Source of the DNA: Stachybotrys elegans
Taxonomy: Eukaryota; Ascomycota; Sordariomycetes; Hypocreales; Stachybotryaceae
Direction of reading: 5' to 3'
Assembly: GCA_020746835.1 (NCBI GenBank)
Contig: JAGPNK010000021.1
Coordinates: 62,001 to 126,000, forward strand
DNA: 64,000 nt
Positions 25,354-47,939 of this stretch are shown here, one piece after another. Position 1 is the first letter of the stretch, and every line of letters starts with the position of its first letter. The position numbers and the translations under genes are program-made. The notes below the pieces were generated by a model. That model did not search any database, was not told the DNA's origin, and saw nothing but the letters and a program-made list of their open reading frames with translations.

Positions 25354-26594
25354 ATGGGCGACGCAAGTTTATTGGCCGACCATAGCCTCATTTCAAATGG
25401 CAGATCCGCCGGAGCAGGTTCGGCCCCTACCATGTCTGCCATTATTTACAAACAACTGGGCGAGGTAGAGCTTGTTCGCCGGCCAAAACCGCAAATCCAA
25501 GCACCAGGAGATGCTATAGTCAAGGTTCTCCACGCCAGCATTTGCGGAACAGATCTGCATATTCTCCAAGGCCACGTACCGACATGCCAGCCTGGCCGTA
25601 TTCTGGGTCATGAGGGTGTTGGCATAATTGAATCACTAGGAGCAGGCGTTACGTCTTTGTCTGTGGGAGACAAAGTACTGATTGCCTGCATCTCGTCTTG
25701 TGGTGTCTGTACGCCTTGCCGCGGGGGGCTGTCCGCACACTGCTCTACAGGTGGCTGGATTTTGGGACACACGATTGACGGAACCCAAGCAGAATACGTC
25801 AGGGTTCCCCATGCAGCGTGTTCGCTATTCCCACTGTCTGCAGATGTAAGCGTTAGGGCCGCCTTGCCACTCTCCGACTCGGTGCCTACGGCGTACGACG
25901 TTGGTCTCCTGCCTGGCAACATCAAGCCGGGGGCGAAGGTGGCCATTGTGGGAGCTGGCCCCGTCGCGCTGGCCCTGGTTATGCTTGCGAAGCTTTACAC
26001 TCCGAAATGCATCGTGGTTATCGGACGGGGGGGATCGCGTTTAGAGACAGCCAAAACGCTCGGGGCTGACTATGCGTTCAGCGTTTTGGACGGTGATGAG
26101 GCGGCCGTTCAGAGTGCTTTAGAAGTTACCAATGGCGGAGGGTTTGACCTGGTTTCGGAGTGTGTTGGCTCACCCGAGTCGTTCGATATTTGCCAAAGGC
26201 TACTGGCCATAGGTGGTACATTGACAAATGCAGGTGTTCACGGATGTCAAGTGAAATTTGACTTGCACGACTTGTGGAGCAAGAACATCAGTAAGTTTCC
26301 TGCCATTCCCCATATCGCGTCTTTGAAGGGTGCTGACTATGGCCGTCCCAGACATCGAGAGCAAGCTAGTTAGCCATGATCACACATCATGGCTGATTGA
26401 CTTGGTCCAAAGCAATCTGCTAGACCCGCAACTGCTCGTATCTCATGGTAGGTTTATTCAACAGACATCGAACGAGAGTATTCACAACTGACCAACTGGA
26501 CTTAGTATTTCCTCTCACATCTGCTCAAAATGCATATACGGCCTTTAAAGCCGGTTCAAAGGAAGGTGTTCTCAAGGTAGCGATAGAGATGTAA
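25354..26594 (+). CDS. Zinc-dependent alcohol dehydrogenase (MDR family)
   Basis: NAD(P)-dependent medium-chain alcohol dehydrogenase. Exons 25354-26290, 26352-26447 and 26506-26594 (introns GTAAGT...CCCAG and GTAGGT...TTAG), 373 residues. Catalytic zinc ligands are C64 (SICGTDLH) and H86-E87 (GHEGVG); the structural zinc site is C116, C119, C122, C130 (SCGVCTPCRGGLSAHC). The nucleotide fold starts at VAIVGAGPVALAL. A second in-frame ATG (MSAIIYK, residue 27) begins the usual conserved part and could be the true start. It sits tail to tail with the diterpene cyclase (172 nt between stops), so it is a likely tailoring enzyme that oxidises a terpene alcohol, though cluster membership is inferred from position only. 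Confidence 0.9.
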
Positions 26595-26766
26595 TAGACG
26601 TCGGGGGAGCCTGCAAATATCACTTATCAGAGTCTGAATGCCAGCCTGACTTTGAATACAAAGCAAATCATTCAGTGAATCTCAAACTATTCTATATGAC
26701 TATGTAGAACTAAAAGAAAGGTTGTTCCAGTCTTGATTCCTGATAAGCATAAATAACATACTTTGC

Positions 26767-29700
26767 TTACGCCGTTATCTGTACCCGACTCGCGATATCT
26801 TTGATGACGTAGATCTGGCCATAGAGGTCTGTAACGTCGCAGAACATTCCCCATATCTTCATTCGCCTCTCGCCCAGCGCAGCCGCCTCAGCACCCTTTA
26901 TTTGCTTTTGCTCCTGGGTGCTGCTGGTGGTAGCATTACTCAAGCGATCAAAAGCGTCGCGGAAGCAGTCGCGCTCATAGTCGGCTATCTGGTAGAGCAC
27001 TCGTTTGCGCTCTTCTGCTCCACCGACGCCGGAGAATTCCGCAAAGTCGGCCGAGTTCACGTTAGCCTCGTCACGGTCGCGGGCCACAGAGCCAAGGTCG
27101 TTGTAAATACGGCACATGGTGGCCAAGTGTCGGCATGTGGCTGCCGCAAGGTACTTTTCGCGTGGGGTTGGGAAGCAGTCGGTTCCCAGTGTTTGCTTTG
27201 GCGAGGTACGTGGAGTCATTGTAGCTCCCAGCAGACACGCCACGAATGAGAAGGAATAGGGACACGATGTGTGGTCCGCTGACGTGCTTCGCACCCATCG
27301 GAAAAAGGTCTCGGGTGTCTCGCCCCATACATCGGCAGGCTCCTTCTGTTCTTCGCGGTCTTGTAAAAACGCCTTGAAGCCTTGGTTGTCCCGAATCTGC
27401 TGGACATGCGCATCGAGGAAGATGTGCAGCTCCTGTGCTACCAATTTCCGGTCCCACAAACTCGCATTGACAATTGCGTCTGCGTGTAGAACATGGTGGG
27501 CGAACTTGGAGAGCACAGTAAAGACTTCCTGCTGCTCCTCGGTATAGCCAGCCTCCCCGGTAGACTTAGGCGCGACATCCATAGCTGAAGCGTCGCTGCC
27601 CAGACTGGCCTTAGCCTTATCCATGACGTTGGCAATGACTTGGTGCAGCTCGTTGAGTTGCCCGTCAAAGGCTGGGCCGGCGACCGATTCCATGTACTCG
27701 TCGGCCTGGAAATTTAGGAATGAGATGGTCATCATCTCGTAAAGGAATGCAGCAGAGGGGTACGTGCGGGTGCGGTTGTTGCAAGCCGTCCATGTGAAAG
27801 GAATCATCTCGAAGTACTTGTCCTCAGACATATTCTTGCGAGGGAAGATACTGGACCTGTTGGCGCGAAGCATTGGCTCATAAAACTTGGCCTCGAGCAT
27901 GGAGGCACTTAGGGCCCACTCGGGCATTTCGGAGAACAGCGGTGTCTTCTTCAGCAGTTTGACCTGCTTCATGGCTGATTCTGGGCTACCGCCCTTGGCC
28001 ATGAGTCGGGCGAGCGAGATACCTACCATCGACGCATCCTTAGGCACTGGAGTGCCTGCGGCCTTCAGCGCGGCCAAGGTATAAGACTTGGTCACAAGAG
28101 GCGTGGTATAGCTGACCTTTTCGATCCATAGATGATCCCAAGCTCCGCTGTCCTCGGGGCTGCTAATCGCCGTCATGGCCGTCATGGCGTCAACGGCTCG
28201 CTGTATGGCCGCATCGATAGTCGGGCGGAGATGGAAGAATTGAAATAGCCGTCGCGCCTCACACAGGATGAGGACGGCAAATGAAGACTCCTCAATTGAC
28301 TGGTCCCAGGAGCCGTCTTCCTGTTGGTCAAGCAGCGCCCTTAGACAGGCCTGAAAGATGGCGATGTAGACTTTAGACCAAGTCGTATCGTCTAGGATGG
28401 AATCGTCAAGCTCTCTCTTATCGACTTTATCAAGAAGGTCCACCAGAGCTTCCACCAGCAGCATGGTAGGGTAAAGGTGGCTCGTATTCTGCGCGATATC
28501 TACATTAGCATCTCGGTTCTTCGAGCATCGAGGGTGCGAGCACAGTGGTTTAAACTCACCCATTTATCCTTGATCTTGCTGTCTGCGTTCCACCAGAACT
28601 CGGCCAGAAACCTTACAGTTTTGGCAATCTGAGAAGAATACATCCTCACGTCCCGCTGGGCGAGAAGCGCTACAAGAGCGTTGGTATTGGCGCTGCAGCT
28701 GGCATCGCGCTCGCCAGGATAAGTACGGAAGTGCGTCGGTGTTTCAAACACCTCAAGCATCCTCTGGACGTCAACGTGGTGGCCCAACATACCCAGCGAG
28801 TAGATAGTTTTTGCCGTGTCATCAACATCAGGGTCAAAGAAAGGAGCTGGAAATTATTAGCCTGTGGATGAAGCGTCAGACTGAGAAGCTTACCAAATCC
28901 GATGACACCCTTCTCGTCCTCGATAGCTCGCGCCAAGCAGTTTTGCATTTGGCTCACTTCGGAGGATGGGAGATCGGCTGGAGAGAAGCGGCCTGGGCGC
29001 AACAGAGTGGACAACGCCTAAATTCGATGATATGTTAGAATCGTGGAATTTTTGACTTGAATCAGAAAGGGGTGACTTGCCCAAGAATACTCAAAATAGG
29101 TGGACGGATAAGCGCTTGGAACACCTCCGCTGCCATGGCCAGCGGCCGTCTTGACCACGTGGGCGAGATAAGCCTCAGCTTCGTCGTCCCACTGTGAAAC
29201 GTGCATCAGGTAGGCGGCCGTGGACGATGGAGAGCCTAACATGGAACCATTGACCTTGTGGTGTGCAACCCTGTCAAAGTCGATGGTTCCAATAAACGAC
29301 TCAAGCGAGTGCACTGCGGTGATGCGCACTGGGCTGTAGAGGAACTCGGGCTTGAAGCGCGCCATCTTGGCAGAGTACACTCCCATTAGCGGCGCCTTGC
29401 TGGGGAAGTCAAACGTAAAGCCCTCGCGATCGAGGTACTGCAGCATGGCCGGCACGATCATCTCGAAGCCGACGTGGTCTGTCTTGGAGACGTCCCACTC
29501 CATCAGCTGGGCCTGAAGAGACGACCTTGCCCGGATGATGCGATCCTCCAAGTCGCAATCCATAGGCTGTGTCTGTCGCTCGGACGCCGGAGCGGAACGA
29601 TGCCGCGCCAGCGCCAGCAAACCTGCGCTGGTGTTGAGGATGCCGTCGATCTGCGCCTTGCGGTTGACACCCCAGCTGCCGTCGGGCAACTGATGGTCAA

Positions 29701-29905
29701 GCACATAGCGAAAGCACTCTGGGAAAAGCCACTGCTGCTGACCGTCAATGGGTTTAGTAACCATCGACACCCATGCCGTGTCGTATATAGCGCAGCTCAT
29801 GGTGCCATAGCCATACTTGTCGTCGTAGGCCCCGACAGCACCCTTGATCATCTGCGTGGCTTCCTGCAAGAGCAGGTCTGACTTGGCTGTAGGATAACTT
29901 CCCAT
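26767..29905 (-). CDS. Bifunctional diterpene cyclase (copalyl diphosphate synthase / kaurene-type synthase)
   Basis: Core enzyme of the cluster. It should protonate GGPP to a copalyl-type diphosphate and then ionise this to a tricyclic or tetracyclic diterpene hydrocarbon. Exons on the minus strand: 29905-29081, 29017-28894, 28846-28560, 28488-26767; 2958 nt, 985 residues. The class II motif DVDDTA is at 323-328 ([18 protein letters not shown]). The class I metal site is DEYME at 675-679, the fungal substitute for DDxxD, and the second metal motif begins at N875 ([12 protein letters not shown]). Both active sites look intact, so a bifunctional enzyme is expected. Other marks: [19 protein letters not shown] near the N-terminus and QLPDGSWG. 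Intron 1 uses a GC donor (TGG|GCAAGT) with TTTAG. Which skeleton forms (ent-kaurene, a pimaradiene or other) cannot be told by eye. It shares a 1-kb promoter region with the first EthD-like gene. Confidence 0.95.
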
Positions 29906-30915
29906 CTTGACCTAGCGAGAGATAGAGAGATAGCCTGTGAAGCTGGTGTGCTTGGCCCAAACTATGGCAGGATGGGTGAGTGAATGAGTAATGAAGGGCA
30001 GCAACGCGAGAGAAGATAAATTGAGTGAAACAATGAGGTATTGAAAGTAAACAGACAGATGTAAAGGTATGCGAGCAGAATTGCCAAAGGTAGGTTGTCG
30101 TTTGTGTGGATAGCCTTGAATGAAAGGTGGGAGCGACGCCTAAAGTATCTCGTCAGAAGCGAGAAGTGTCACATCTTGATTTCAGAGAGAGTGCCAGCAG
30201 CATATCCGTCAGGACGATGTTGATTCCGATTCCGTCACTGTTGTGCCTCCTTCGGCCACCTTAGTTCACATGCGGCACGCCCGTTGCGTCCTGAGCTCCG
30301 ATACGGCGCGCAGTGTAGCAGAGAACCCTTGAATCGAGCCCCGGCGCCCAATATGCAGGGTCCTTGGCTTGTGGTTGGCAGCAATGCCGATAACATCGGC
30401 CTCTCCAAGTAGGGTGGGAATCCACCAGCCCACAGAGCCCGCCGAAGCGTCCGGGTTGCTCCGTTCCCAATTCATAAATAGGCCCCACCTCGTCCATTTC
30501 CCTTTTCAGATAGGCAGGCATCGGAGGGAACATAACGGTAAGAGATCTACAAACCGGAGGACACTGGCCAATAAAAGAAGTATACCTATTACCTCACACC
30601 AAAGAGTTGTCGCTCTCGTTGCAGGTACATCGGAGGTGGACTGCTCATTCAAGAAAAGCCTCCGTGCCATTGTGGTAGCTCACTACAATTACATACAATG
30701 TAGGACTTTGGTGCACTATTTATTGGTATCTGTAATATAAAAGCTCTGCTGTGCTCATTATGTCAATCGACGTATGATACATTGCAAAGCTCTTCATTTA
30801 ATATCGTTTTGCTGCAGAATTGATCCGCGCCTGCATGTATGTATACACATTCTTCTCTTCCAGACGTTAAACGAGAATCCCTTGAGTAACCAGAGCAGTG
30901 CGTTCCTCGCCCATA
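29906..30915. promoter_or_regulatory. Bidirectional promoter, cyclase / EthD-1, with two TCGGAGG sites
   Basis: 1.0 kb between divergent cluster genes. It has two copies of TCGGAGG (30521-30527 and 30630-30636), the same 7-mer found in the GGPPS/EthD-2 promoter and before the first P450. A TATAAAAG box at 30736-30743 lies about 175 nt before the EthD-1 start. The motif as target of the cluster's Zn2Cys6 protein is an inference. Confidence 0.5.
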
Positions 30916-31224
30916 ATGACTATCACCGTCATGAGCATGTACCCCAAGGGTGCCGAGTTCAACCTTGAGTACTATACCAAGGTACACAAGCCGCCAATCT
31001 ACGAGGCCATGAAACCGTTTGGCTTCTCCAACCCGCGCATCATGGTACCCAAAACAGAAGACAACCCTTACGAGATCATCAGCATGGGCGATTTCCCGGA
31101 CTGGGAATCATTTGAGAGATACAAAGCCGAGACCCCTGCCTCGTACTGGGAAGAATGGCGAGGGCGTGCCAAGAACTTTACCAAGATCGTCCCGATCCAG
31201 GTCGTGATGGAGACGACGCACTAA
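30916..31224 (+). CDS. Small EthD-like (dimeric alpha+beta barrel) protein 1
   Basis: 102 residues, single exon, ATG at 30916. The pattern MTITVMSMYPKGAEF, then EYYTKVHKPPIYEAM, and GDFPDWESFERYK is that of EthD/dimeric alpha-beta barrel proteins, including the Tyr-Tyr-x3-His-x-Pro signature. No signal peptide or membrane span, so cytosolic. It is paralogous to the protein at 33776 (shared MKPFG, SN.R, VPK, MGDFP.WE.FE). It is transcribed away from the cyclase and ends 0.7 kb before the convergent GGPPS gene. Family members act as small oxygenases, decarboxylases, cyclases or non-catalytic partners, so no reaction can be assigned. The location in a diterpene cluster suggests a helper or tailoring role. 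Confidence 0.85.
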   Translation: MTITVMSMYPKGAEFNLEYYTKVHKPPIYEAMKPFGFSNPRIMVPKTEDNPYEIISMGDFPDWESFERYKAETPASYWEEWRGRAKNFTKIVPIQVVMETTH

Positions 31225-31941
31225 ATGATGAGCGAACTTGGGAATAGAGTATTGGGGTTTGGGGAGGGAGATAGATGCATGTTAGGGTTAGATTTCATAA
31301 ACACGGGAATCGATATCTGTTTATCTACACTGCAAGATGTGATGCAAATATTCAAGAACTCGATTGTGATTTTCGTGTGGATGGATCGAGAGAACCATAA
31401 AGTGCCCACCATTCTCCAGCAATAGGAAGGAATCTAATGTTAATGCAGTGGAGATATCATACTGCCACATGATGTAGCCGATAGAAGCGAGTACTCATCA
31501 TTGACGTTCAAAGTACTATGACTGTCACATCTCCAATCTCTCGGCGAGTTAGAAGACAACAAGGAAACTGGGATTGATCAACACAGCAGCTCATTAATTT
31601 TGGGAGTAACATGCAATCACAACATGGATGAAATACCTGCCTCATAAGTTATCCCGCCACCTGTTTTCCATGATCATGTACGAAAGTCTATCCTAACTAG
31701 CTGCCTACGACAGAAATTATTGGGACGAAAACAGGAGAAGGGCGAGCACGGCTGTTAGAACAGAGACAATGAGGCAAGATAAAACAACGCGGACCTTGTA
31801 ACTATCTGTTATTCTAAAACCAAGGCTAGAAAGAGGACATAAGAAACGAGTATTCCCTGCTGATAACACAGATCTTCGAGACTAGCGATTGCGTTTTATT
31901 TTTCTTTATGCTCAGATCCAAACCCAAAGCACTCCTTGCGC
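31225..31941. other. Convergent 3' spacer
   Basis: About 720 nt between the convergent EthD-1 and GGPPS genes, AT-rich, with no gene or repeat recognised. Confidence 0.5.
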
Positions 31942-33075
31942 TCATGCGCCAATCGCGCTGGCCTTGTCGAGAATAGCCAGGAACGCTTTGGCCTTGCCGG
32001 TGCCGGCGTCAAGGCGCGTGGCCAGGGCGCGAGCTCTTTCGGTCAGGATGGCAATGACTTTCCGGGTATATTCTAGACTGCCTTTTTTCTGCATGTGGTC
32101 AATGGCGTGGCGCTTGATGTTGTCGTCGGTCGTCTTGGAGCGCAGGATGCTCAGTAGGCGAGTGTCGGCGCGATCCGTATGGATGCTGTGGACGACGGGG
32201 AAGGAGAACTTGCCCTCGGTGAGATCCTCATAGAAGCCCTTCTGCTCGATGTACTTCTCGTCCGTCATGTTGCGGTAGTCATCGACAATCTGGTAAATCA
32301 GCCCCAGCAGCTGTGCCAGCGATACAAATCCATCTGCCTTGGGCTCCACGTCCGACTCCTCTTGCAGCAGACGTACTGCAAGTCGGAAGAGTCCCGCTGT
32401 CTTGTTGGAAATCATCTCAAGGTAGTCATCCTCACTCGGGCATGTCAATGTCTCTCGCCACATGAGTTCCATACCCTGACCACGGTGAAGCTGCACCAGC
32501 TCCTCGTTGAAAATATCGATGGCGCGACGGCTGCGCAGCTTTTGCAGCTCACACGCCGCCTGGAAGTAGATGTAGTTGGCCGAGTTGATAGTCTGTGCCA
32601 GGCCAAAAATGGTGTGTGCGACTGGTAAGCCTCGACGCAGCAGTGACTCGTCTTGGATGTCATCGATGAGCAGCGACGCTGTGTGAAGCATGCTCACTGA
32701 ATGCACAATAATGTCTACTTTCTCCTCGGATACCCCGAGCCAGGCGTTGAATGCGTTGATTAGCGCCATCCTGAAGTCCTTGCCTGGCGCCGACTCGAGA
32801 TAAGAGTATGGCGCCTTGACAGCAAATTCCTTGCTGTCGTCCCAAGTCTTGTCTGGGCTGAAGTCGAGATCGGCATGTTCAAAGCGGGTAGCGTCGAAGG
32901 CTGGTGGCTTGCTTTGGGCTGGGGACAATTTCTCCTCCGAGTTGCTCAGGCTCAGTGGTGCCGCTTCTTGATTCTTAGATGTGATTCTCGTCGTGTCCAT
33001 CTCATTCTCTGCTGATAGAGGAGGACTAGGACATTCCATGCTGAATGCATCCTTGGACGACATGACGGCTGCCAT
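31942..33075 (-). CDS. Geranylgeranyl diphosphate synthase (cluster copy)
   Basis: Makes the C20 precursor GGPP from FPP and IPP. One intron-free frame of 377 residues from ATG 33075 (a second Met at residue 5). After a ~85-residue Ser/Pro/Glu-rich N-terminal extension, typical of cluster GGPPSs, come KAPYSYLESAPGKDFR, the first aspartate-rich motif DDIQD at 138-142 (LLIDDIQDESLLRRG), the GQGMELMWR block and the second metal motif DDYRN at 265-269 (YQIVDDYRNMTDEK). The catalytic surface is complete, so the protein should be active. A dedicated GGPPS beside a diterpene cyclase is the usual sign of a diterpenoid cluster. Divergent from EthD-2 with 0.7 kb between. Confidence 0.95.
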   Translation of the reverse strand: MAAVMSSKDAFSMECPSPPLSAENEMDTTRITSKNQEAAPLSLSNSEEKLSPAQSKPPAFDATRFEHADLDFSPDKTWDDSKEFAVKAPYSYLESAPGKDFRMALINAFNAWLGVSEEKVDIIVHSVSMLHTASLLIDDIQDESLLRRGLPVAHTIFGLAQTINSANYIYFQAACELQKLRSRRAIDIFNEELVQLHRGQGMELMWRETLTCPSEDDYLEMISNKTAGLFRLAVRLLQEESDVEPKADGFVSLAQLLGLIYQIVDDYRNMTDEKYIEQKGFYEDLTEGKFSFPVVHSIHTDRADTRLLSILRSKTTDDNIKRHAIDHMQKKGSLEYTRKVIAILTERARALATRLDAGTGKAKAFLAILDKASAIGA

Positions 33076-33775
33076 TTTTGTGCGAGACTGAGTTTCTAAG
33101 GAGATGAAGAGTGTAGGAGGCGGTGTTCACTTCTATCACTGCCTTGTTTCTTTAATCTTTGGCGGGTTTGGATGTTTGCTTTATTGAAGGCACTGTTAAG
33201 CAGAGGAGAAAGAGGATAAAGAAGAGAAAAAGAGACAGTTGTGAGATGTTCGTCGACTTGTACAGGATGGTGGTAAAGCTTGACTTTATTTATACCGTTA
33301 TGTAGCTGTTGCAGGCCACCGTATAAAATGACTTCATTGCATATGGTCACCCCAACTCAGACTTGCCAGCTTCGCCGAGTGCCATATGCGCGAGATACTA
33401 CAAGGCTTTACCTGCGGCATGAGGCCGTCATAGCGCCGTACCTCCGAGCTGCTCCCCTCCGAACCGATTCCAGGAATTGTGGGCCTCCGATTCGAATCCG
33501 GAAGCCACCTCACGGTGTCCCTGGATGCAAGAGGAAAACGGCCGATACGGAGCAGAATTGCCTTTGGGTATCACCAACGGGAAAGATCGACGACTAGAGA
33601 CTATAAAGCGCCGGCCCGATTCCCGAGATATGTTTTTTGGCATCTCAACCCTGTTAACCAAGACGGTCATTACCACACTGCCATTCTTACCTACCTTTGT
33701 TGCACTCCACTAGCTCAAACGCATACGGGCATCGATTCGCAGAATTACAGACTCAAAATCCGGTCCATCGCCACC
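33076..33775. promoter_or_regulatory. Bidirectional promoter, GGPPS / EthD-2, with three TCGGAGG sites
   Basis: Three copies of the 7-mer on the minus strand (CCTCCGA at 33441-33447, 33456-33462 and 33484-33490) lie within 50 nt. TATA-like boxes are at 33287-33294 for GGPPS and at 33602-33608 (TATAAAG) for EthD-2. This tight triplet is the best evidence that the motif is a regulator site. Confidence 0.55.
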
Positions 33776-34102
33776 ATGCCCATCACCATGATGACCAGGT
33801 ACCCCAAGGGCGCCGACGTTGATGTCGACCACTACATCAACAAGTACTCTCCTCCCACCTGGGAAGCTATGAAGCCTTTTGGGCTAAGCAATATCCGCTG
33901 CCTCGTTCCCAAGGACCCCGATGATAAATACGAGCTGATCGCCATGGGCGACTTCCCCAGCTGGGAGGCCTTCGAGAAGATGCAGGCCGGAATCTCTCCC
34001 GAGACGTGGCAGAAGTGGACTGAGGACCTCAAGTCGTGCTCCAAGATCATGCCTGAATCATCTATCTTGGACGTCAAGGATCTTGGGGAACACCAAATCT
34101 AG
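33776..34102 (+). CDS. Small EthD-like (dimeric alpha+beta barrel) protein 2
   Basis: 108 residues, single exon, ATG at 33776 in a good CACCATGC context. It is a clear paralogue of the protein at 30916: YPKGAD.D, PP.WEAMKPFG, SN.R.LVPK, MGDFPSWEAFEKM and ETWQKW align without gaps, at roughly 45% identity by eye. The position that is His in copy 1 (TKVHKPP) is Tyr here (NKYSPP), so one of the family's likely active-site residues is lost. Either the two form a heterodimer with one modified face, or they have split functions. It also has a short extra C-terminal tail (ILDVKDLGEHQI). Function unknown. Confidence 0.85.
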   Translation: MPITMMTRYPKGADVDVDHYINKYSPPTWEAMKPFGLSNIRCLVPKDPDDKYELIAMGDFPSWEAFEKMQAGISPETWQKWTEDLKSCSKIMPESSILDVKDLGEHQI

Positions 34103-34295
34103 CTGTCTGAATCACTCAGATGAATTCTGTTCTGAGGGGAGATAGCAACGAGCCGGGAATCCTATGCTGATGGCGCACGCTGTGTGGTGGAATGAGCGGT
34201 GGAATATGCCGCAGTTCGTCTGTATGCAACTTGTCATAATCCCAATTCAAGACATAATAGGCTCAATCTCGTTCACCCTGCATTGATTGTACATG

Positions 34296-34440
34296 CACCC
34301 CAACCCCTGAATGATTTATTGGCAGTGACTTTAAGTAGGGATACCCTGTAAATTTTAGAAAAAGCCAACGAGATAGCTAGAATTTTTATCAATATTATAA
34401 TGAAGGCAATTTTTTCTAGAATCATTCAGGGGCTTGGGTG
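34296..34440. mobile_element. MITE-like element with 21-bp terminal inverted repeats
   Basis: 145 bp with AT-rich interior bounded by inverted repeats 34296-34316 and 34420-34440, matching at 19 of 21 positions (core CCCCTGAATGATT). No coding capacity. TA dinucleotides lie just outside (TACATG on the left, TAAG on the right), as in Tc1/mariner-type insertions, though the left TA is offset. It lies between EthD-2 and the regulator gene. Confidence 0.75.
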
Positions 34441-35215: not shown

Positions 35216-37010
35216 TCATTTTGTCGTGCAGCCTTCAGTCAACTCGTTAAGCCGGCTTTGCATCTTACGTAGCACCGTCTGATGGCCAGACCAACCCTCG
35301 CGCTCAATGATTTCCTCCATGGCCGACATGAGCGCCCGAAGGCTCACCACGCGGTCCCAGAAAAGGCTCCGTAGCATAAGCATCAAGTCGTCATCGTCAA
35401 CAATCCACTGGCCGACCGGCGCATCCTGTTGCCTCCAGCCCGCTCCCGATCCAGCCCCCGTTGCAGCCTCGCCGACGTCTGCTGCTACTGTGGCTGCTTC
35501 TCTTCCCAAAGGGGCGATATATGAAGCAGCCACATTAGTCGTTTTTTCTTGGCTGACTGTTGTGGTTTGTGTTGCTGTTGCTGTTGCTGCCGTCGCTGTT
35601 GATGTCATTGCTGCCATTGGCACTTCTGCTACACGTCCCATGATGGCTGCTCCCGGATTCGGGACGTGGATGGATGCAGTGATGGGCAATGCAGTGTTAT
35701 TTACTTGACGCAAGGTTTCCACCACGGTGAAGATGTTGGCAAGGAGCTGCTTGCACATGGAAAGCAGCAGCATCATCCACTCGGACTTGCGGCGGAAGTG
35801 CTTGCACTCTAGCAGTGCGCAGCACTCGGTCAGCGCCTTCTTCTGGAGCTTGAGAATGCCTTCATGATACCCAAGTGCAGAGGATGATGCAGAAGACACG
35901 ATATCGCCGGCCCCCCCTCGCCATGAAGAAATATTGACCTGAATAAACTCATACGTCTTGAGGCCCCTCATGAGGCAATCACACGATCCTGTGGGGGAGG
36001 AAGCAGGGGATGACGTGTGAGCTTCTGTCGCCGGCGCCAAGGGGTTACGGGACCGTCCTCGGATTGAGAAGTGATCATTCATATCCTCCGAGGCGGCTAC
36101 GGAGCTCCCGTGCAATGTAGTGCCGAATAATGAGTCAAAGTCTGACATCAAGTCCAGGGACTGATCGACGTCATCTCCGTCGCCGCCATACCATTCCAGA
36201 GGGTCCAGGGAGGGAGGTTGCCACAGAGGGAAGGCCTTGTGGTTGACTGACTGTTCATCCATCGTGATGTTTGCACCAGTGCTGCCTGATTCGTTCCCAT
36301 TGCTTCCCTGAAGGAGCGGGCTGTCCCAGAGCATCGAGTCCATGACAGCTGCCGTATCATCAGGCACCAGATCCGTGTTGAAATCGAGCACACCCGATGA
36401 CAGCGCATCCATCGGGTCTTTGTGGGACGAGCATGCCGGTTGCTTCAACAGTGGCTGCAGCACCTGTGTAGGCACGGAGTCTGAGCCATCTTGCATCTCA
36501 GTATCCTCGCACGATGTAGACAGCGGCTGCGAAGGAGATTCTTGGTGCAGAGATGGCCGCTGCGTAGTGGGTGCGCTACGAACACTCCCCGTTCGGCCTC
36601 TGGATTCCCCGGTGCTCCCTGAGCCGACACTGCTGCCGCCGTTGCTTTTGGTCCGGCGGTGGCTGCGGGTGCTTGGCTGATTCCCGGCGCCACCAGTGCG
36701 ATTCGTGGAAGACTGTCCATTTCCCTGAGCTGGATCTGGGCTCGAGTTTGGGTAGCAGCATTTTAATCCCTTGTTCTGGCACCGCTGGCAAGCACTCGCC
36801 TCTCCAGTGCACTTAACCTGTGGAGAACGGATCTGTTAGCTGGAGCTCGAAAATGCAGGGGAATGGCTGGCTCGCATGCAACCGCCTCTCACGTACCTTA
36901 CTAACCCGGCAATTGGAGCAAGCTTTTTTTGTGAATTTGGTGTGTAGCTTTGCTGTCATCAGATATGACACATCCTTGGGGATATCGTTGACTTGAAATG
37001 TCCCGAACAT
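35216..37010 (-). CDS. Zn(II)2Cys6 transcription factor, AflR-like (cluster regulator)
   Basis: Nuclear DNA-binding regulator, 571 residues from exons 37010-36897 and 36817-35216 (intron GTACGT...ACAG, 79 nt). The intron cuts the zinc cluster, and the spliced frame gives C-x2-C-x6-C-x6-C-x2-C-x6-C (ACSNCRVSK|VKCTGEASACQRC...LKC). Then follow a Ser/Thr/Gly/Arg-rich linker, an acidic middle region and a C-terminal part with LLECKHFRRKSEWMMLLLSM, which resembles the C-terminal domain of AflR-type regulators of secondary metabolism. Ser/Ala/Thr-rich repeats occur near residues 440-480. It lies inside the diterpene cluster between EthD-2 and the MDR reductase. Role as pathway activator is the standard inference. 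Confidence 0.9.
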
Positions 37011-38497: not shown

Positions 38498-39553
38498 ATG
38501 GCGGCTCCTACAATGCGGGCTTGGCTATACTCCTCAGCCGCCAACGGTCTTCACAAGAGCCTGACACTGAACAACGCCGCACGCCATGTTCGACCAACCA
38601 TCCCACCCGCCTTGGCCAAGGGAGAGCTCCTCGTCCAGGTCCGTGCCTCGAGTCTCAATGTCGCCGACTATAAAGTCCCAGAGCTCCCTTACGGCATGGG
38701 GAAAATGCTCATCTCAGTACCCGCCAGCCCCGGCATGGACTTTGCTGGAACTGTTGTGGCGGCTGGCAAGCCCGGACTTATCTTCGCCGAGGGTGACAAT
38801 GTCTTTGGCCGGCTAGACCCTTGTCAATTCGGCAGTCTTGGCGAGTTCATAGTCGTCCGCGACTCGTGGTGCGCCAAGTTGCCAGCAGCCGTTTCCATGG
38901 AGCAGGCTAGCGGCCTAGGATCTGCAGCCCAGGTCGCGCTAATATCAGTGGCCCCATACGTACCGGAGCCGACCAAAGAAGGTTCTGATGCCAACAGGAT
39001 GTTCCACGTTCTAGTCAACGGCGTGGGCGGCGTGGGCTCCTACACGGTTCAGATCGCCAAGGCACTGGGCTGTCGCGTCACGGCTGTGGCCTCGACGGGT
39101 AAGGCTGAGCTCTGCAAGAGCCTTGGCGCCGACGAAGTCATTGACTACTCCAAGTGTGACCTTGTAGGCCACCTAAAAGCCAAGGGTCATGTCTTTGATC
39201 ACGTTGTCGACAATGTCGGCCTTCCCTACGACCTCTACAAGGCCGCATCGGATTTCCTCAAGTCATCAGGAACCTTTGTGCAAATAGGTGCCGACATGAC
39301 CGGGGCGGGCATGACCAACATTACGTCGCGCATGATGCGACCTGGCTTCCTCGGGGGCGGTAGCCGCAAGTTTGCTCTTCTCCAGGTTAAGACCAAGCAG
39401 CAGGATCTAGAGCGCTTAGGGGCATGGATGGCCGAGGGTAAGATCAAGACAGTCATTGACGAGGTCTTTGAGTGGGAAGAAGCGCCCAAGGCCTTTGAGA
39501 AGCTCCGGCAAGGGCACGCCGCAGGCAAGGTTGTCATCAAGGGTCCTCAATAA
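38498..39553 (+). CDS. Zinc-free MDR oxidoreductase (quinone/enoyl reductase-like)
   Basis: 351 residues, one exon from ATG 38498. NADPH-dependent reductase of the quinone oxidoreductase/enoyl reductase branch: GROES-like N-terminal half (ELLVQVRASSLNVADYKVP, PGMDFAGTVVAAG), then VNGVGGVGSYTVQIAKALG as nucleotide-binding turn, the LGADEVIDY segment and FVQIGADMTG. The Cys ligands of zinc enzymes are missing. C-terminal KAFEKLRQGHAAGKVVIK is typical. Similar enzymes act as trans-enoyl reductases or double-bond reductases in metabolite clusters. A tailoring step on the diterpenoid is possible but unproven. Confidence 0.88.
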   Translation: MAAPTMRAWLYSSAANGLHKSLTLNNAARHVRPTIPPALAKGELLVQVRASSLNVADYKVPELPYGMGKMLISVPASPGMDFAGTVVAAGKPGLIFAEGDNVFGRLDPCQFGSLGEFIVVRDSWCAKLPAAVSMEQASGLGSAAQVALISVAPYVPEPTKEGSDANRMFHVLVNGVGGVGSYTVQIAKALGCRVTAVASTGKAELCKSLGADEVIDYSKCDLVGHLKAKGHVFDHVVDNVGLPYDLYKAASDFLKSSGTFVQIGADMTGAGMTNITSRMMRPGFLGGGSRKFALLQVKTKQQDLERLGAWMAEGKIKTVIDEVFEWEEAPKAFEKLRQGHAAGKVVIKGPQ

Positions 39554-40688
39554 TAGGCCAATGCGGAAGGAATCATGTTGATTTGTAAGTTGCGATAGGT
39601 CAGAGAACGGAAAACATAGAGAGACAGGATAATGCGCCAGAAGATAAATGCTGGTCAGCAGTCTCATTGGCATTCACTATTCATAGAAAAGAACATAATA
39701 AACTCAAACTCAAATTCAATTCATGGGAATTGCATATCGAGTGTCTCTACAGAAAGAGATCAGTGACTTTAAGAATATCGCCTCTGATACTATAAACAGC
39801 ATCAAATCATTAGAGAATGTTGGCCTGACCACTCGGCTACCCTTTTGACGATGGCCTCGTTCTTCCTCCTTGGTTGCCGGGGCACTACGCACCACTGCCC
39901 TACTGTATTGACACTCTACTGCTTCTTCCACCTCCAACTGCATACCTCTTTTCATCATCGCAGTTGGCAGAAAACTACGTGAGTAGGTACGGTCACGGAA
40001 GTATGAAGGTTTTCTTAGCAACCGGCATTGGTCAGAAGTTTTGAGGGCGACAGTGGCGTCAGGCTTATTGCCTGACCCTCGCAGTCGTTGATGCATTGGG
40101 ATATCGGGTTGACTTCGGAGGTCTAGGGCGGCTGGGCTCAACGGACTCACCGAATGGAAAGCACCGCTGGCGATGGGAGGTTTGCCTCTCCGAAGACGCT
40201 CCCTGTACTGTCGGAAGGCAACTCACTGGGAAATGGAAGAGTCGAAGAAATCTGCCGGGACATGATGGCAGTTTCCTAGTATGGAGAATGACCGACACAG
40301 CTGATCCGTAGAGACATTTACGGCAGGGCTAGTGAGCTTTCCGCAGGGCTTAGGCATGGTTTTCTCGGTTGAGGGGCTCCGGCTGATCCCTGCAGCATCG
40401 GAGCCCACATCCTCGTTGGATTACCCTTCAGGGTCCTCCAGCAACGGAGTGTTGAGCCACTGTGCCACTCGGGAAAGATCGGCACGAAGAAGACCGGACT
40501 ACTATCCACGTGTAGGTGTATGCCGAAGAATGATTGAGACAGCACGTCTCTGCTGGCAAGTCACGTATGGAGCCTCGCCGAATATATAAAGTCAGGTCAC
40601 ATCGGCTCTACACCATTCAACCAACATTCACTCAGCATAGCAACCAAGAAGAAAACCCCGGAGAAGATATACCATCTATCGATTCACC
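39554..40688. promoter_or_regulatory. Promoter region of first P450 with TCGGAGG-type sites
   Basis: 1.1 kb. One exact TCGGAGG at 40115-40121 and two variants, TCGGAGA (minus, 40187-40193) and TCGGAGC (40398-40404). TATATAAAG at 40583-40591 lies about 100 nt before the P450 start. A minus-strand open frame at 39716-40150 has no ATG start or motif and is not called. Confidence 0.45.
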
Positions 40689-42388
40689 ATGGATATAACT
40701 TCCAGATTCAACGCGACCATGAGCCCTCGAGGCCCGGCACACATGGACATAGGCCGGGGCTTGCCTGAGGGCAAGGTTGGTCTCTTCTTCGTCACCGGTC
40801 TCTTCGTACTCTCGATTCAGCTGGCTAGGTCGGCGTGGGACTACATGACGACCATCAAGGCGCCCGTTGTGGGCTACCGATCGTGGTTTGAGCCAGCGCT
40901 TCTCGTGGGCTTCCGGTTCGTGCAGGGAAGTAAGCCCATGATCCGCGAGGGCTACGACAATTTCAAGAACGCCATGTTTTACGTGCAGCGCAATGACAGC
41001 AAGATCCTCGTCATCTCGCACAAGCACGTGGATCAACTGCGCAACATGCCCGAGGAAAAGCTCAGCGCGATCCGAGCTCACCTCAAGAATTTGGTGAACA
41101 AGTATTCGGTCGGCGACATCCTGCTCAAGACGGACCTTCACTTCCGCACGCTGCAGACCAAGCTTACGCCCTCTCTCAACAACACGATTCCGCTGCTTCA
41201 GGACGAGATGGACTTTGCGATCGAGGCTGAGGTGCCCAAGGGCGTTGAGAGCGACTGGACATCGGTGCAGATCTACGATATTGTCCTGCACATTGTGGCT
41301 CGGTTATCGGCGCGTGTCTTCCTGGGCCCTGAGCTGTGCCGCAACCGAGAGTGGCTGGACACGTCAATTCACTACACCGAAAACCTCTTCGAGACTGTCA
41401 TCTTCCTGCGCGCGTTGCCCACCTTTGTGCATCCCTTCGTGGCTCACATGCTGCCCTCGTACTGGCGCATGAAGGCCAACTTTACCACCGCCAAGCGTCT
41501 CATCACCCCCATGGTGCTTGAACGTCGTTCTAACGAGGCCAACTTCGCCAGTTACGAGAAGCCCAAGGACATGCTGCAGTGGATGATGGACGGTGCTCAG
41601 AACGACTATGAAAAAGACACGGCCACCCTTTCCCACCTGCAGCTGCTCCTGTCCCTGGCCTCGATCCACACCACCACCATGGCCTGCGCCCACTCCATCT
41701 ACGACCTCTGCGCCCACCCCGAGTTTTTTGAGCCCCTACGAGAGGAGATTAGCTCTGTCCTCTCCAGCAGTGACATCAACCAGAAGCAGACGCTGCAGAA
41801 GCTTGTCAAGGTCGACTCTCTGATTAAGGAATCCCAGCGAGTGAACCCCCCGAGTCAACGTGAGTTTTTCTTCCGTTCCATCTACCAAAATTGAAGAGAA
41901 AGTTAATCTGAAATCCCTCTTTAACAGTCGCCTTCAACCGTATTGTCATGGACAAGCCCCTGCAGCTCAAGGACGGTCCGACTCTGCCCGCAGGAACACA
42001 CTTCGCCATGGCTTCTGACGCGGTCTTGCATGATGCTGCGTACCTACCCGGAGCGACCCAGGGCGCCAACACGGCTGAGTTTGACCCTTTCCGATACTCA
42101 AAGCTCCGTGAGGAGGCGGTTGCCAAAGGCAACTCCGAGGCCGGAAACAGGTACCAGTTCGCAACCACAGACAACTCGTCGCTGCACTTCGGCCACGGCA
42201 AGTACAGCTGTCCCGGACGTTTCTTCGCCGCCAACGAGATCAAGCTCATCCTTGCCCGTCTGTTGCTCGACTACGAGTTCAAGTACCCTGAGGGCCAGGG
42301 TCGTCCTGTCAACTTGTCTGCCGACGAGAACCTGTACCCGGACCCCAATGCCCGAGTGATGATGCGCAGGAGGCAGCAGAAGGCTTAA
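40689..42388 (+). CDS. Cytochrome P450 monooxygenase (diterpenoid oxidase candidate 1)
   Basis: ER-bound haem monooxygenase, 543 residues from exons 40689-41859 and 41928-42388 (intron GTGAGT...AACAG). An N-terminal membrane segment (VGLFFVTGLFVLSIQLA) precedes the P450 fold. The K-helix ExxR is at E381-R384 (IKESQR), and the haem-binding loop FGHGKYSCPGR has Cys485 as iron ligand. The I-helix reads ASIHTTTMACAHSIYDL, without the usual AGTDTT, as in fungal P450s of the GA-pathway/ent-kaurene oxidase type. Sequence style (YRSWFEPALLVGFRF, GYDNFKNAMFYVQ) fits that group, so stepwise oxidation of the hydrocarbon is likely. Promoter has the shared TCGGAGG motif. Confidence 0.93.
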
Positions 42389-42612
42389 GGTGTCCCTAGA
42401 CGATCAGAGACTTTGATTTGATTTTCCTCTACATCTAGTGCGGCCTTAGATGGCAAGCGATGATACTTGGCTGCGTCGGGTGGTTGGTCACTTGCGCAAT
42501 GCTTGTTTTTCATTAACCCATCTATCTACATCATTTGTTGAGGTTTTGTTCAGACAATTTGAGAAGAGGGCATTTAAAGAAGTTTTATTTGTTAGAGTAT
42601 GAATATCTTGTT

Positions 42613-42759
42613 TTACATCTATGCCAGATCGAATTTTCTAACCAATTGTTATCTATTGATCTAATATCGTCTTTATCGTTAGGGGGGCCTCCTCGAAGTC
42701 GCTGGTCTGTATCCCATTGGGGCACACAAACGGGAAATCCCACATTACATCTATGCCAG
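42613..42759 (-). repeat. Dispersed SINE-like repeat, copy C, with perfect 15-bp flanking repeats
   Basis: Element 42628-42744 in reverse orientation, opening TGTGGGATTTCCCG and ending TTAGAAAATTCGAT. It is bracketed by a perfect direct repeat TTACATCTATGCCAG at 42613-42627 and 42745-42759. A duplication of this length is expected from target-primed (non-LTR) insertion and is too long for LTR elements or most DNA transposons. Best preserved copy with B. Confidence 0.9.
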
Positions 42760-43380
42760 CTTCGAGGTTCTCCTTCTCCGTATATCATGATCCAGTGTGA
42801 AACTGCCTGTAGAAGTTTGATAGTTCTTGGTAAGTGCTCAAACAATAGAACAGCTATGATGGAGTAGGTGCGTGCAGTGTAAAAAAGGAACAATAGTATA
42901 TGCGAATAATAGTGGCCTTGCTGCCTGCAGGACCAAAGAACAGAGTCAAACAATGAAGGGATCGTCAGACTACTGACATCACCCGTTGGCCGGAGCCAGA
43001 GAATAATGAGGGATGGAACAGCTATTTCTGAAAATTTTATTACAACACCAAAGGGCCAATATAGACACTCTTAGCGTCTTGCGTGCTTAGCAGCGCTGTA
43101 AACACAATCTGGTCATGGCCAAAACAAGGATGTGTGGTGTAGGTATAAGACATCAAACGACATTTATGTTATGGGGCTTTACCAGCTTCTTGCCGGTTTC
43201 AGTTACTGTCATTTTCTCTCCCCTATTGCTCTAGGTATGTGCCAATGAAGAAGAGTGGTAGCTCGGATCGAGTCACCAGGCAGATGACTTCTCGGACGCC
43301 CGGCGCTACACTGGCATTGTCACGGAAGCTTCCGACTAAGAACGGTAGCTAGGAAACCCTTGATATCGCTATTATTATAG

Positions 43381-43497
43381 CCACAAAATTTTCTACCAAG
43401 CGTCATCTGTTAATTTGATAGTCTTTATTGATATAGTGGCCTTTCTTGAAGTCACTGATCGGTATCCCATTGGGGCATAGGATCGGGAAATCCTACA
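43381..43497 (-). repeat. Dispersed SINE-like repeat, copy D
   Basis: Reverse-oriented, more diverged copy: TGTAGGATTTCCCG start, CCCCAATGGGATACCGATCA block, and TTGGTAGAAAATTTT end. Flanking duplication not recognisable. Confidence 0.75.
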
Positions 43498-44270
43498 CTC
43501 CTCTAGGCATCAAGCTGGTACATTTTGTCACAGTCCTGCAAGCTGTTTACCCTGGTTACAGGATAATAGCAACCCTTGCTAAGATTTGCGTGAGGTGTGT
43601 TTACTTGTATGATGTCTTTTCCCTTTTTGCTCTTCTTCCTTTTTTAGCAGCATATCGTTTATTCTGCGCGGCTGGGGCAGTCAAAGTTGCAGTGACGTTT
43701 ATCGACTACATGGAACTTGATTTTCACAAAAAGCCCAATAATCAGCAGGATCTTTACTAGCCTTGTAGAAGTCCTGGGTGTGAACTTGGCCACTGCATTC
43801 ATTGTCATGGCGAATTCTGCATCTCAGTTCGGTTCTGACGTCGATTGTGGTTGCACGTCATTACAAGGCTGGCCAAACAATCATCATAGCCCGATACCCC
43901 ATCATAGGGCAGGGGGCCTAGAACCCACGGGCCGAGATGGACTTGGTTAGAGGTACGTAAGCGGCATGTCGGTAATTTTCTGTGTTCGGAAGAGGCTCAC
44001 TTTGCCCTGCCGCGAAGTGGCTCCTAACCAGGAATGCCGGTCCCCACCCGCGTGTCTCAAAACGTGCGGATGTCAGGCTTGCACCGATGGATGTAGACCG
44101 GCGCTCCGAGTGGTTGTACATAAATACAAAGCTTGTCAACCAAGCCAGATCTTGCTGCCGAATTTCAGTTGAATTGTTTATCAACCATCTTGTTCTTGGA
44201 GACCGGTTCAGTTATCTTCCTGCACTGCCACGTCTTCGTTGCAGATACCTATTCCTACATTCGTACAGCC

Positions 44271-46086
44271 ATGGCTGTGCTGGACGCAGTGTCCGCCGAC
44301 ATCATCGCGGAGCTGGCCGCGGTTGTGGCACTGGCTATTTTCGCGCGAAAATGGTACGAGGGATCCTATCTGAGAAGCCTGCCATGGGCTGGTATTATTC
44401 CCAGGACGTGGGCCGACCTGGCCAAGGCTAAGAAGGACTTCATCGCCCGAGGCGCCGATATCATCGACGAGGGCTACTACAAGGTAAATGAATGTTGCAG
44501 ATACATATCTGTGCTTTCAAAAAGCGCGTTACAGACTTGCTGACCCTTCAATCTTCATGTAGTATAAAGATGACAAATTTTGGGTTCAAACGGCAGATAT
44601 GCCTCGGCTGGTTCTTAGCCGTAAATTCATTCCCGAAATCAACAACAACAAGATGGTTCCCGACGGCACCCTGAGCTTGACGGGAGCTCTAAAGGATGTG
44701 AGATTTACCCGGACATCATACACTGCTATGTCAACTGACCCCAACCTAGAGGCTTCTCACCAAATATACCGACCTGACTCACATTTTCGAAAGCCCGCTG
44801 CACAATGATGTTTGCAAGATCCAACTTACTCAACATCTGCGTAAGTCTGATACTTGGTGTAGATGACCTAAATCAACCATGTTCAACATGCTAACGCCTC
44901 AACTAGACAAGCTCATTCCAGGCATGCACGAAGAGACGGAGTATTGGATCTCGCAGAAGATTGGAGACGGCTGCGAGACCAACGCCTACGATGTCATGGT
45001 GACCTGCGTTGTGGGCATCATCTCCCGCGTCTACGCCGGTACCGGCGCCAGCCGTGATCCCGAGTGGCTGAAGACAGCCCGAGATTACTCAATATCGCTG
45101 TTCGCAGCATGCATCGCCCTGCGGCCCTATCCTGCCTTCATTCGCGGCTGGGTAGCCCCATACATGGAAACCCAGAAGAAGCTAAAGGAACATCTCGACA
45201 CAGCCAAGCGACAGTTCAGCCCAATCTTTGCCGAACGCCTCCGTTTGGCTGATGCGGGACTCATCAAGGAGGAAGACAAGCCTAACGATATGGTCCAGTG
45301 GATGGTGGATGCCGCCAAGGGCGATGACCGCGACCCCGACCGTCTGTCCCATAACCTTCTGTTCCTGACCGTGGCCGCTATTCACACGAGTGCCGCTGGT
45401 GCCGTCCATGCTCTTTTTGACCTCTGTGGCAATCCCGAGTATATTGAACCACTGCGTGAGGAGATCCGCGAGACGTTTGAAGAGCGCGGCATCACCATGG
45501 CAGCTTGGAACCAGATGAAACGTCTTGATAGTGTCATGAAGGAGTCGCAGCGAATCAATCACCCAGGAGTCTGTGAGTCTCTCTTTCCATCTATTCCGTC
45601 TGTCCAGCCACCACCGAGCCATTTTCTCTAATAAAACTAGTGAGCTTCAACCGCAAGGTGGAGAAGCCCTTGCATCTCTCAGATGGAACTACGATCCCAG
45701 CAGGGACCATGGTGACGATCCCTAGTTCTTCCATCGCTCGCGACCCAGACATCTACCCGAACCCGGAAAAGTTCCTGGGATTCAGATTCTATGAATTGCG
45801 CATGGCTAAGAAGGAGAACGCCATGAGATACCAGTATACGAGCACTGGGCCCGATAGCATGCAGTTTGGCCACGGAAAGCTAGCATGCCCCGGCCGCCAC
45901 GTCGTCGGCGCCGTCATCAAGGATATTCTAGCCGAGATCCTACTCAAGTATGATGTGTCATGGCCGGCAGGTACCACTCAACGTCCAAAGAACGTCTTTT
46001 CAGGCGAACATATTGGGCCCGACCGATCTCAAAAGATTGTCTTTACTAAGAGGGTGGCGGATAAGACAGAGAGTAAAACACAGTAG
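44271..46086 (+). CDS. Cytochrome P450 monooxygenase (diterpenoid oxidase candidate 2)
   Basis: 516 residues from exons 44271-44483, 44563-44697, 44750-44840, 44907-45572 and 45641-46086. An N-terminal anchor (IIAELAAVVALAIFARKWY) and LPWAGIIP proline-rich hinge precede the fold. ExxR is E359-R362 (MKESQR); the haem loop is FGHGKLACPGR with Cys451. The I-helix reads AAIHTSAAGAVHALFDL, again lacking the standard Thr pair. The join over intron 3 (TQHL|HKLIPGM) is the least certain. It is related to the P450 at 40689 (same SIYDLC/ALFDLCG and PLREEI context) but clearly distinct. Likely a second oxidation step on the diterpene. Confidence 0.9.
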
Positions 46087-46857
46087 ATACAGAGCAGAAG
46101 GAAGTGGTCAATTACATGGTGGTTATTTAAGAGTCCGAATAGCATAATTGAGAATCGACCGTTGCTGGCCGCACGGTTTCAGTCTCTTACGTGGAACGAG
46201 TTTCAGCAAAGGGAAATTTGGTCCCGCGATTTTCGGCACGTGCATCAATGCTTTAGCCAGCAGCACCAGGCAATTAAACGAGCGAGCAACAAGCTAGTTA
46301 GAATTCCACAGTCAACTGAAAGGGAATGTTTTTGTCAGACAAGAGAAGCGAGCCCGTACTTGACGCATCATCAAGCTATTTCTATTGTAGTGGCTGTCTT
46401 CATCTTGTGAGAATACACCTGCTGTTTTACTCATCAGCCTCATCCAGCAGGCGGACAAGGCGGGCGGCTAATGTAGCTGATCGTCAGATGGTGATTGGGA
46501 ACTAGAAGTCGATTAATCTCCTGGCGGCAACGGTGTCGAGTAATAGGTCGCCACAGACAAACAAAGCCCGCTTTTTTCATGCGCCGACATGGGCTGGCCC
46601 ACCCATGGCCCTGTTCTTACACGAGGCAAGGAGCACTGTCGGCCAGTCAAGCGAGTCAAAGGACCCCAACCTTTGACGAAACTTGTCTTGGCATCAAGGC
46701 AGGGACCCCCTGATGGAGCACTTCGACGTCATACTAATATTTGCGGATGTCCGCCCTGTGGGTTGGTCACCTGCCTCCAGATCATCCATCACCACCTTTT
46801 TTTTATGCGTTGGCTTGACGTTCTGAAACTCTGTTGAGTGCCAGTGCTGGTCGCTTG
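46087..46857. other. Intergenic spacer
   Basis: 770 nt, no gene seen; holds the promoter of the membrane protein gene. Confidence 0.45.
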
Positions 46858-47939
46858 ATGAGTACGATGTCTCTGACTAGGCCTGCAAGCTGTACCTTTG
46901 CCCCCGAGGCAACCGCCAGCGACGCCGGCGTCGCTGGTACCGGTGTAAGCTCTGCCGTTGCCATTTGATTCATTGATCGCCTCAGCGGTCCAGTCGCTGA
47001 CCGTGTTTGCCCCAGATTCTCCTTTCATTCATGATTACCGCGGCCTTCTCCATAATCCTATCAGCCAGCGTAATCTTCGCCGAATTCCGAGGAAAGCAGT
47101 CCATCATCCGCAGAAAGCTGCTCAACAGCTACAGTGACTCGCAGATACTCCAGGGCATTGGGATCCAAAGTGAGTCCGCTAGTGGCCCTGAGCTGGCAAT
47201 TTCGAAATGATCCTCGGCTCACACAGCAACTCCTCCAGGTGTCGGGCTCGCTAAGATGAACTCGCTGGTTCCATATCACTTCTTCCTCATCTGGATGCTA
47301 TCGCTGCTGTCTATGGCCACCCACAATGCGACTCTGCTGGCGCTTGTCTGCGACTACCGTCGGGACTGGGTCATTCGATGGCTGCGACAGCTCCTCATGT
47401 TTGTCAACTTGGCCCTTTCATGCGTATCTGGAATCTTCGTGCTTCAGGCCGTGTCGATGGGACTAGACGATCAGACTTTGCCAATTGCATGTGTCTGGCA
47501 TACCGAGGGCAGAGGCGCCCCCTCCACTGCAGGCTTGTCCTATGCTGGTACTATCGCGGTGATTGCTGGGAACTGTGCCATATTTGGCCTCGCCACGTGG
47601 TACTTACATAGTCGCACTCAGAGATTCTACAAGGCAGTGCAAGTTGTGGGTCTTTTGCTGATGACGGCTATTGCCCTCGGGGCAGCCATCAGAGTCATTC
47701 TTCTCTCCCAAGCTTTTGGAAATCCCTCTGTTCAGCTCAGCGATCAAGGGGAAAGAGAGTGGAGTTTCGGGCAGCTCTTGTCCATGCTGGTGCTCATATT
47801 CCCGCTTATCTCGGTTGTTGAGATTACTCGTGGCGAAATCAAGGTGGCACCGCCTGTTGACGACGATCGTCAACCCTTATATGATGGGGAACTCCAGTCT
47901 ATAGGCGGTGGCTTCCAGACTAATATGTTTAAGAAATGA
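46858..47939 (+). CDS. Six-TM fungal membrane protein, unknown function
   Basis: 313 residues from exons 46858-46944, 47016-47169 and 47239-47939, phases consistent. About six hydrophobic spans are visible: ILLSFMITAAFSIILSASV, YHFFLIWMLSLLSMATH, LLMFVNLALSCVSGIFVL, GTIAVIAGNCAIFGLATWY, VVGLLLMTAIALGAAIRVI and SMLVLIFPLISVV. The N-terminus is short and hydrophilic, the C-terminus acidic and cytosolic-like. It has no transporter signature that I know. It follows the second P450 on the same strand, so it may be the right end of the cluster, or just a neighbour. Confidence 0.75.

Follow-up and report, generated by a model that had tools for sequence, protein, structure and literature searches.

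A predicted labdane-related diterpenoid gene cluster with a bifunctional cyclase and a pair of small proteins in Stachybotrys elegans

Background

Here we present a putative diterpenoid biosynthesis locus of the ascomycete Stachybotrys elegans, located at positions 25354-47939 of a 64,000-nucleotide stretch of its genome (GenBank assembly GCA_020746835.1, contig JAGPNK010000021.1, positions 62,001 to 126,000 of the forward strand). This whole stretch is called the window, and positions refer to it unless another contig is named. The reading that we favor, with moderate confidence, is that of a functional-looking labdane-related diterpenoid cluster, in which a bifunctional cyclase carrying a serine at residue 820 (Ser820) would make pimaradiene or isopimaradiene, cytochromes P450 and dehydrogenases would tailor this hydrocarbon, and a Zn2Cys6 protein would act as the switch. 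To judge from the sequence, the product is probably an oxidized (iso)pimarane-type compound.

Results

Ten genes were confirmed at the locus, and in the hand-built models, which were checked by translation, every spliced frame is complete and free of internal stops; the final models contain 13 introns, 12 of the GT-AG type and one GC-AG. The core consists of a two-site cyclase, a second geranylgeranyl diphosphate (GGPP) synthase, two P450s, two dehydrogenases of the MDR superfamily and a Zn2Cys6 protein. Judged by its gene content, this core is an ordinary fungal diterpenoid cluster of the CPS/KS type, a well-known kind, though uncharacterized here. An earlier note on this DNA had proposed a labdane-related cluster with its own GGPP synthase, which is well supported, a separate GGPP-synthase-like gene (55% identical) being present on contig C12. 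The cyclase with DVDD and DEYME sites, the two P450s and the two dehydrogenases that it had placed within about 22 kb were all found there with intact frames. As to the absences that it had listed, family-model matches of the ten proteins include no desaturase, no transporter is among the ten genes, and the sole 3-hydroxy-3-methylglutaryl-CoA reductase (HMGR) found in the genome is on contig C61, outside the cluster.

In the pathway that we propose, GGPP would be supplied by the local synthase, cyclized to a copalyl diphosphate (CPP) at the class II site of the cyclase (DVDD), and then ionized at its class I site (DEYME plus NSE), where the third ring would be closed. Ser820, at a helix break, would bring about early proton loss from the pimarenyl cation, giving pimaradiene or isopimaradiene and not a kaurane or aphidicolane. 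Oxidation of this hydrocarbon would then fall to the two P450s, the zinc alcohol dehydrogenase and the MDR reductase would adjust alcohol/ketone or enone states, and the Zn2Cys6 protein would switch the cluster on.

The cyclase gene lies on the minus strand (26767..29905, 4 exons) and encodes 985 amino acids, as supported by the spliced model, motifs, alignment and a structure model. Its first intron, 29080-29018, is the one of the GC-AG type. A deposited protein of the same gene (P0001, 978 amino acids, which its source names 'aphidicolan-16beta-ol synthase [Stachybotrys elegans]') is identical to our model in 977 of 985 columns, and the sole difference is at this intron, which the deposited model avoids at a net loss of seven residues of a conserved stretch. 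The GC-AG model is the better of the two, because LSTLL, missing from P0001, recurs in a 59-sequence consensus as well as in both displayed PDB relatives.

For residue counts and phylogeny we used 117 aligned rows, namely the query cyclase, its paralogue on contig C23, and 115 of the 120 cyclase matches listed from a total of 379; P0001, as the same gene, and P0029, P0098, P0100 and P0113, on account of length, were left out. The tree is a quick likelihood tree with SH-aLRT support, and its rows are related sequences, not independent observations. The class II acid motif DxDD, seen in 111 of the 117 rows, is present in the query as DVDD (323-326), and the class I metal motifs as DEYME (675-679) and an NSE motif from residue 875; DEYME is the variant in 21 rows and DEFME in 71. 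A confident structure model shows the gamma-beta-alpha three-domain fold. The class II histidine (HSLE) is the same in 20 of the 20 rows compared and does not discriminate the stereochemistry of CPP, which therefore cannot be read from this residue.

These motifs bear on the possibility that cyclization ends, or water is captured, at the stage of a bicyclic or tricyclic cation, giving a product of the manoyl oxide, copalol or 8-hydroxypimarene type; the cluster would then make a labdane or a hydroxylated pimarane. The related fungal enzyme MoDiTPS1 is described as making ent-manoyl oxide (PMC10512213), and Ser or Ala mutants of plant kaurene synthase are described as yielding some hydroxypimarene (PMC5118566). 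Although the class I motifs are complete in the query, they presumably are in MoDiTPS1 too, and this is weak counter-evidence; we judge such an early stop or water capture very unlikely.

Ser820 is found at the break between helices G1 and G2 of the class I site, and corresponds to residue 813 of the structure model, in which the helices span 800-811 and 814-828 with the break at 812-813. A hydroxyl residue at this place is suggestive of a pimaradiene-type cyclase, not defining. In other diterpene synthases, an Ala-to-Ser exchange at this position is described as short-circuiting the reaction to pimaradienes (AgAS A723S; bacterial KS), and residue A786 of PbACS, the aphidicolanol synthase of Phoma betae, has been placed in the G helix (PMC5902962). 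We took P0087 to be PbACS because it matches at all ten of the checked residues that PMC5902962 names for that enzyme. Across the 117 rows, the helix-break residue is Ser in 75, Ala in 38, Gly in 3 and a gap in 1. Alanine is found in 18 of 18 rows of a clade with source-named ent-kaur-16-ene synthases and in 7 of 7 rows of the PbACS clade, and the remaining 92 rows have 75 Ser, 13 Ala, 3 Gly and the gap. This pattern in the alignment fits the idea that Ala may permit a long cascade while Ser may cut it short at pimaradiene.

Alternatively, the cyclase might run a longer cascade to a tetracyclic alcohol or olefin, either aphidicolane- or stemarane-like from syn-CPP, or kaurane-like; the cluster product would then be aphidicolin-like and the source name of P0001 near the truth. 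That name is one point in its favor, and the tree is another, since the smallest starred clade that holds the query (37 rows, SH-aLRT 98) includes PbACS. Within this clade the query stands alone on a long branch (0.62); the other members are the 7 rows of the PbACS group and 29 rows from Xylariaceae, A. versicolor and further sources. The aphidicolin cluster core, too, has a GGPP synthase, a cyclase and two P450s. However, the query and PbACS are 42% identical, and the PbACS sites A786, F789 and Y658 are Ser, Tyr and Phe in the query, whereas A, F and Y are kept in the four PbACS-clade rows of a 20-row alignment and Ala holds the A786 site throughout that clade. We consider a tetracyclic product unlikely.

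Several observations nonetheless weigh against an (iso)pimaradiene product and against regulation as proposed. Because the 37-row clade also holds PbACS, a syn-CPP-derived skeleton is possible for the long-branched query as far as the tree goes. The 13 Ala and 3 Gly among the 92 rows outside both alanine clades mean that the serine rule is not universal, and the isopimaradiene synthase Sat1646 is described as having Tyr183-Gly184-Ala185 at helix G. The kaurene product of the first alanine clade rests on source names, which are untested labels, and none of the rows compared was identified as a characterized fungal pimaradiene synthase, such as those of A. nidulans and Magnaporthe. No shared promoter motif survives correction in the cluster promoters. 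The literature looked at, in the parts available, holds no printed fungal version of the Ala/Ser helix-break rule.

Two small proteins accompany the core genes. Small protein 1 (102 amino acids, single exon, plus strand, 30916..31224) is divergent from the cyclase gene across a shared intergenic region of 1010 bases (29906..30915), and small protein 2 (108 amino acids, single exon, plus strand, 33776..34102) is divergent from the GGPP synthase gene across 700 bases (33076..33775). They are 44-45% identical and are the only matches of each other within the genome. Since each is encoded divergently from a core gene, across an intergenic region common to the two, they are probably tailoring or accessory proteins; the head-to-head placement favors their membership in the pathway, without proving it.

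The earlier note had called this pair EthD-like, a label that finds no profile support. Neither protein matched Pfam or NCBIfam at E values up to 10, and a genome search with PF07110 (EthD) returned eight pieces at five other loci, the small proteins not among them. An hhalign comparison of the pair with EthD fragments from three loci scored 13.7, within the range of 100 column-shuffled controls, which averaged 11.8 and reached 19.3. A PDB profile search gave four unrelated matches (best E 0.16). A low-confidence structure model built from the two sequences (pLDDT 44) has the element order E-H-H-E-E-H-H-E, for which a dimeric alpha-beta barrel fold of the EthD superfamily is possible on the model; a Foldseek search with this model returned unrelated folds (best E 2.6). 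A literature search linking EthD to diterpene gene clusters with copalyl diphosphate had no match.

The pairing itself, which the same note had reported, is real, and the family is rarer than implied. When some 5.8 billion database proteins were queried with small protein 1 by itself, the 1 candidate scored was that same protein. A profile made from the pair drew 4 candidates and matched small protein 1 together with a relative (94%) of small protein 2, the latter on a JGI contig of 1673 bases. This one relative beyond the locus is counted at the sensitivity of a search that requires shared five-letter words, which remote relatives could escape. Tentatively, and with rather low confidence, we suggest that the small proteins could be a family of enzymes or accessory proteins confined to this lineage, duplicated in the cluster and wired by divergent promoters to a core enzyme each, which would steer or tailor the cyclase product and, with the Ser-switched cyclase, would give a pimarane-type scaffold not among the Stachybotrys diterpenoids named in the literature drawn on here.

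A third divergent pair is formed by the Zn2Cys6 regulator and MDR genes, with 1487 bases between them. The pattern CCG-N12-CGG occurs in five of seven promoters with P of about 0.003, which is the minimum of a test with 300 resamplings and is uncorrected among 98 patterns. The longest exact word common to the promoters has 13 bases, a length that 33 of the 100 resampled sets equalled or exceeded. For CCTCCGA there are six occurrences, spread over three of six promoters, compared with 0.24 expected on the basis of the remaining window sequence or about 0.7 from 74 kb of other loci; as a regulator site it was rejected, failing correction for 4264 words against the expectation of about 0.7. In A. 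nidulans, over-expression of PbcR is described as co-expressing the genes of its cluster (PMC3323652).

The remaining genes would provide precursor, tailoring and control functions. The locus begins with a Zn-dependent alcohol dehydrogenase of the MDR superfamily (25354..26594, plus strand, 3 exons, 373 amino acids), which matches Pfam ADH_N and ADH_zinc_N and carries GHE at 85 and C-x2-C-x2-C-x7-C at 116. The second GGPP synthase (31942..33075, minus strand, single exon, 377 amino acids; Pfam polyprenyl_synt, 5.9e-67) is less than 30% identical to the products of three polyprenyl synthase loci other than that on C12. The Zn2Cys6 transcription factor (35216..37010, minus strand, 2 exons, 571 amino acids) has Zn_clus at residues 29-64 (Pfam, 1.4e-06); the description of it as AflR-like falls away, as the AflR domain was not found and Zn_clus and one below-cut-off DUF match were the only hits at E up to 10. 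The other MDR oxidoreductase (38498..39553, plus strand, single exon, 351 amino acids) matches Pfam ADH_zinc_N_2, and a motif scan for zinc motifs found none in it. P450 A (40689..42388, plus strand, 2 exons, 543 amino acids; ESQR, FGHGKYSCPGR) and P450 B (44271..46086, plus strand, 5 exons, 516 amino acids; ESQR, FGHGKLACPGR) are 35% identical, with normal heme and ExxR motifs in both. The last gene (46858..47939, plus strand, 3 exons, spliced model) encodes a sequence that looks by eye like a membrane protein; two open splicings at its second intron give 313 or 317 amino acids, a Pfam search gave nothing above cut-off, and its membership in the cluster is uncertain.

An interspersed repeat lies at 42628-43022, between the two P450 genes. 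It accounts for 48 of the 52 listed matches of 28100-47900 elsewhere in the genome (74-95% identity; 39 of 940 candidates scored); three others fall at 39870-39959, and a related repeat copy seems, by eye, to be near 43.43-43.50 kb.

The limits of the cluster were set by gene content alone, which leaves room for a cluster of fewer than ten genes, the two outermost ones (the alcohol dehydrogenase gene and the last gene) being unrelated neighbors, or for a silent locus. The last gene has no clear role, and the repeat sits between both P450 genes, points that would suit this view; however, ten of ten frames are open and the repeat is outside the coding regions, and we hold it to be somewhat unlikely.

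Beyond the cluster, at a distance of 2.2 kb from its last gene, lies an MFS transporter gene (50178-51912), recognized by a Pfam match in one exon and with its ends estimated by eye. We take it to be of the allantoate/nicotinate permease type and not a typical terpene exporter. A TauD-type dioxygenase gene lies on the minus strand about 12 kb before the cluster (12631-13599, Pfam 1.3e-41), and 19369-21846 holds one frame that combines a MYND finger with an RNase H domain.

Related sequences occur elsewhere in the genome. The second CPS/KS-type cyclase, apparently intact, is at C23:2306728-2309684 and has DADD, DEHME and a serine at the switch position; in the tree it groups with proteins of Seiridium, Biscogniauxia and Monosporascus. 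In the 40 kb around it, frames inspected by eye include transporter- and transcription-factor-like ones and no P450 or GGPP synthase; the search for the GGPP synthase family had no match on C23, and the P450 search had none in this stretch among the 92 of 352 candidates scored. At C4:1485698-1488849, near a contig end, a broken class II cyclase fragment with stops lies beside a P450 that is 36-45% identical to P450 B, and the two may be the remnant of another diterpenoid cluster. At C16:69462-69750, a fragment of 289 bases, 89% identical to the MDR gene (38576-38864), sits amid frames that resemble, by eye, reverse transcriptases of the LINE (long interspersed nuclear element) type and may be a captured or duplicated gene piece. 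An extra polyprenyl synthase gene near a contig start (C34:3362-4144), by eye like a farnesyl diphosphate synthase, could mark another terpenoid locus.

Discussion

Several fungal clusters of this general kind offer points of comparison. The gibberellin cluster of Fusarium fujikuroi combines a CPS/KS-type cyclase and a GGPP synthase with four P450s and a desaturase. The S. elegans locus differs in having two P450s, and none of its ten proteins matches a desaturase model; at the helix break its cyclase has Ser, in contrast to the Ala of the Fusarium rows in the kaurene-named clade. The aphidicolin cluster of Phoma betae contains a GGPP synthase, a cyclase, two P450s, a dehydrogenase and a transporter, the last without a counterpart among the ten S. 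elegans genes. PbACS shares the architecture of the query and its supported clade, but at 42% identity and with Ala in place of Ser at the switch, and the small-protein pair is only on the S. elegans side.

The ent-pimara-8(14),15-diene (PbcR) cluster of A. nidulans, AN1592-AN1599, as described in PMC3323652, is alike in its clustered GGPP synthase, CPS/KS-type cyclase, P450 and Zn2Cys6 regulator, and in a pimaradiene-type product, which is predicted for S. elegans. That description also lists an HMG-CoA reductase, an EF1-gamma-like gene, an SDR enzyme, a methyltransferase-like gene and one P450, whereas S. elegans has two P450s, two MDR enzymes, the small-protein pair and no HMGR. The Magnaporthe oryzae MoDiTPS2 cluster (pimara-8(9),15-diene; PMC10512213) is alike in that its CPS/KS-type cyclase is surrounded by a GGPP synthase, P450s, a dehydrogenase and a transcription factor, but it has a transporter and adjoins a nonribosomal peptide synthetase, and its description there has no small-protein pair. 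The Talaromyces labd gene set, as described, differs as well. The earlier note could name no cluster with this combination of genes, and the A. nidulans, Talaromyces and Magnaporthe sets, to which the comparison is limited, all differ from it.

Conclusions

If the helix-break reading is right, the Ala/Ser split would offer an inexpensive and testable way to predict whether an uncharacterized fungal bifunctional cyclase, of which there are many, forms a tricyclic or a tetracyclic product. S. elegans is a mycoparasite of Rhizoctonia solani described as making trichothecenes and atranones during mycoparasitism (PMC4413796), and two reviews, in the portions drawn on here, list atranones and diterpenes of the dolabellane type for Stachybotrys. 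As far as a limited search of this literature goes, a labdane-related product would be new for the genus. If our reading of the cluster is right, S. elegans has the capacity to produce a labdane-related diterpenoid in addition to its trichothecenes and atranones, and this would bear on its attack of other fungi.
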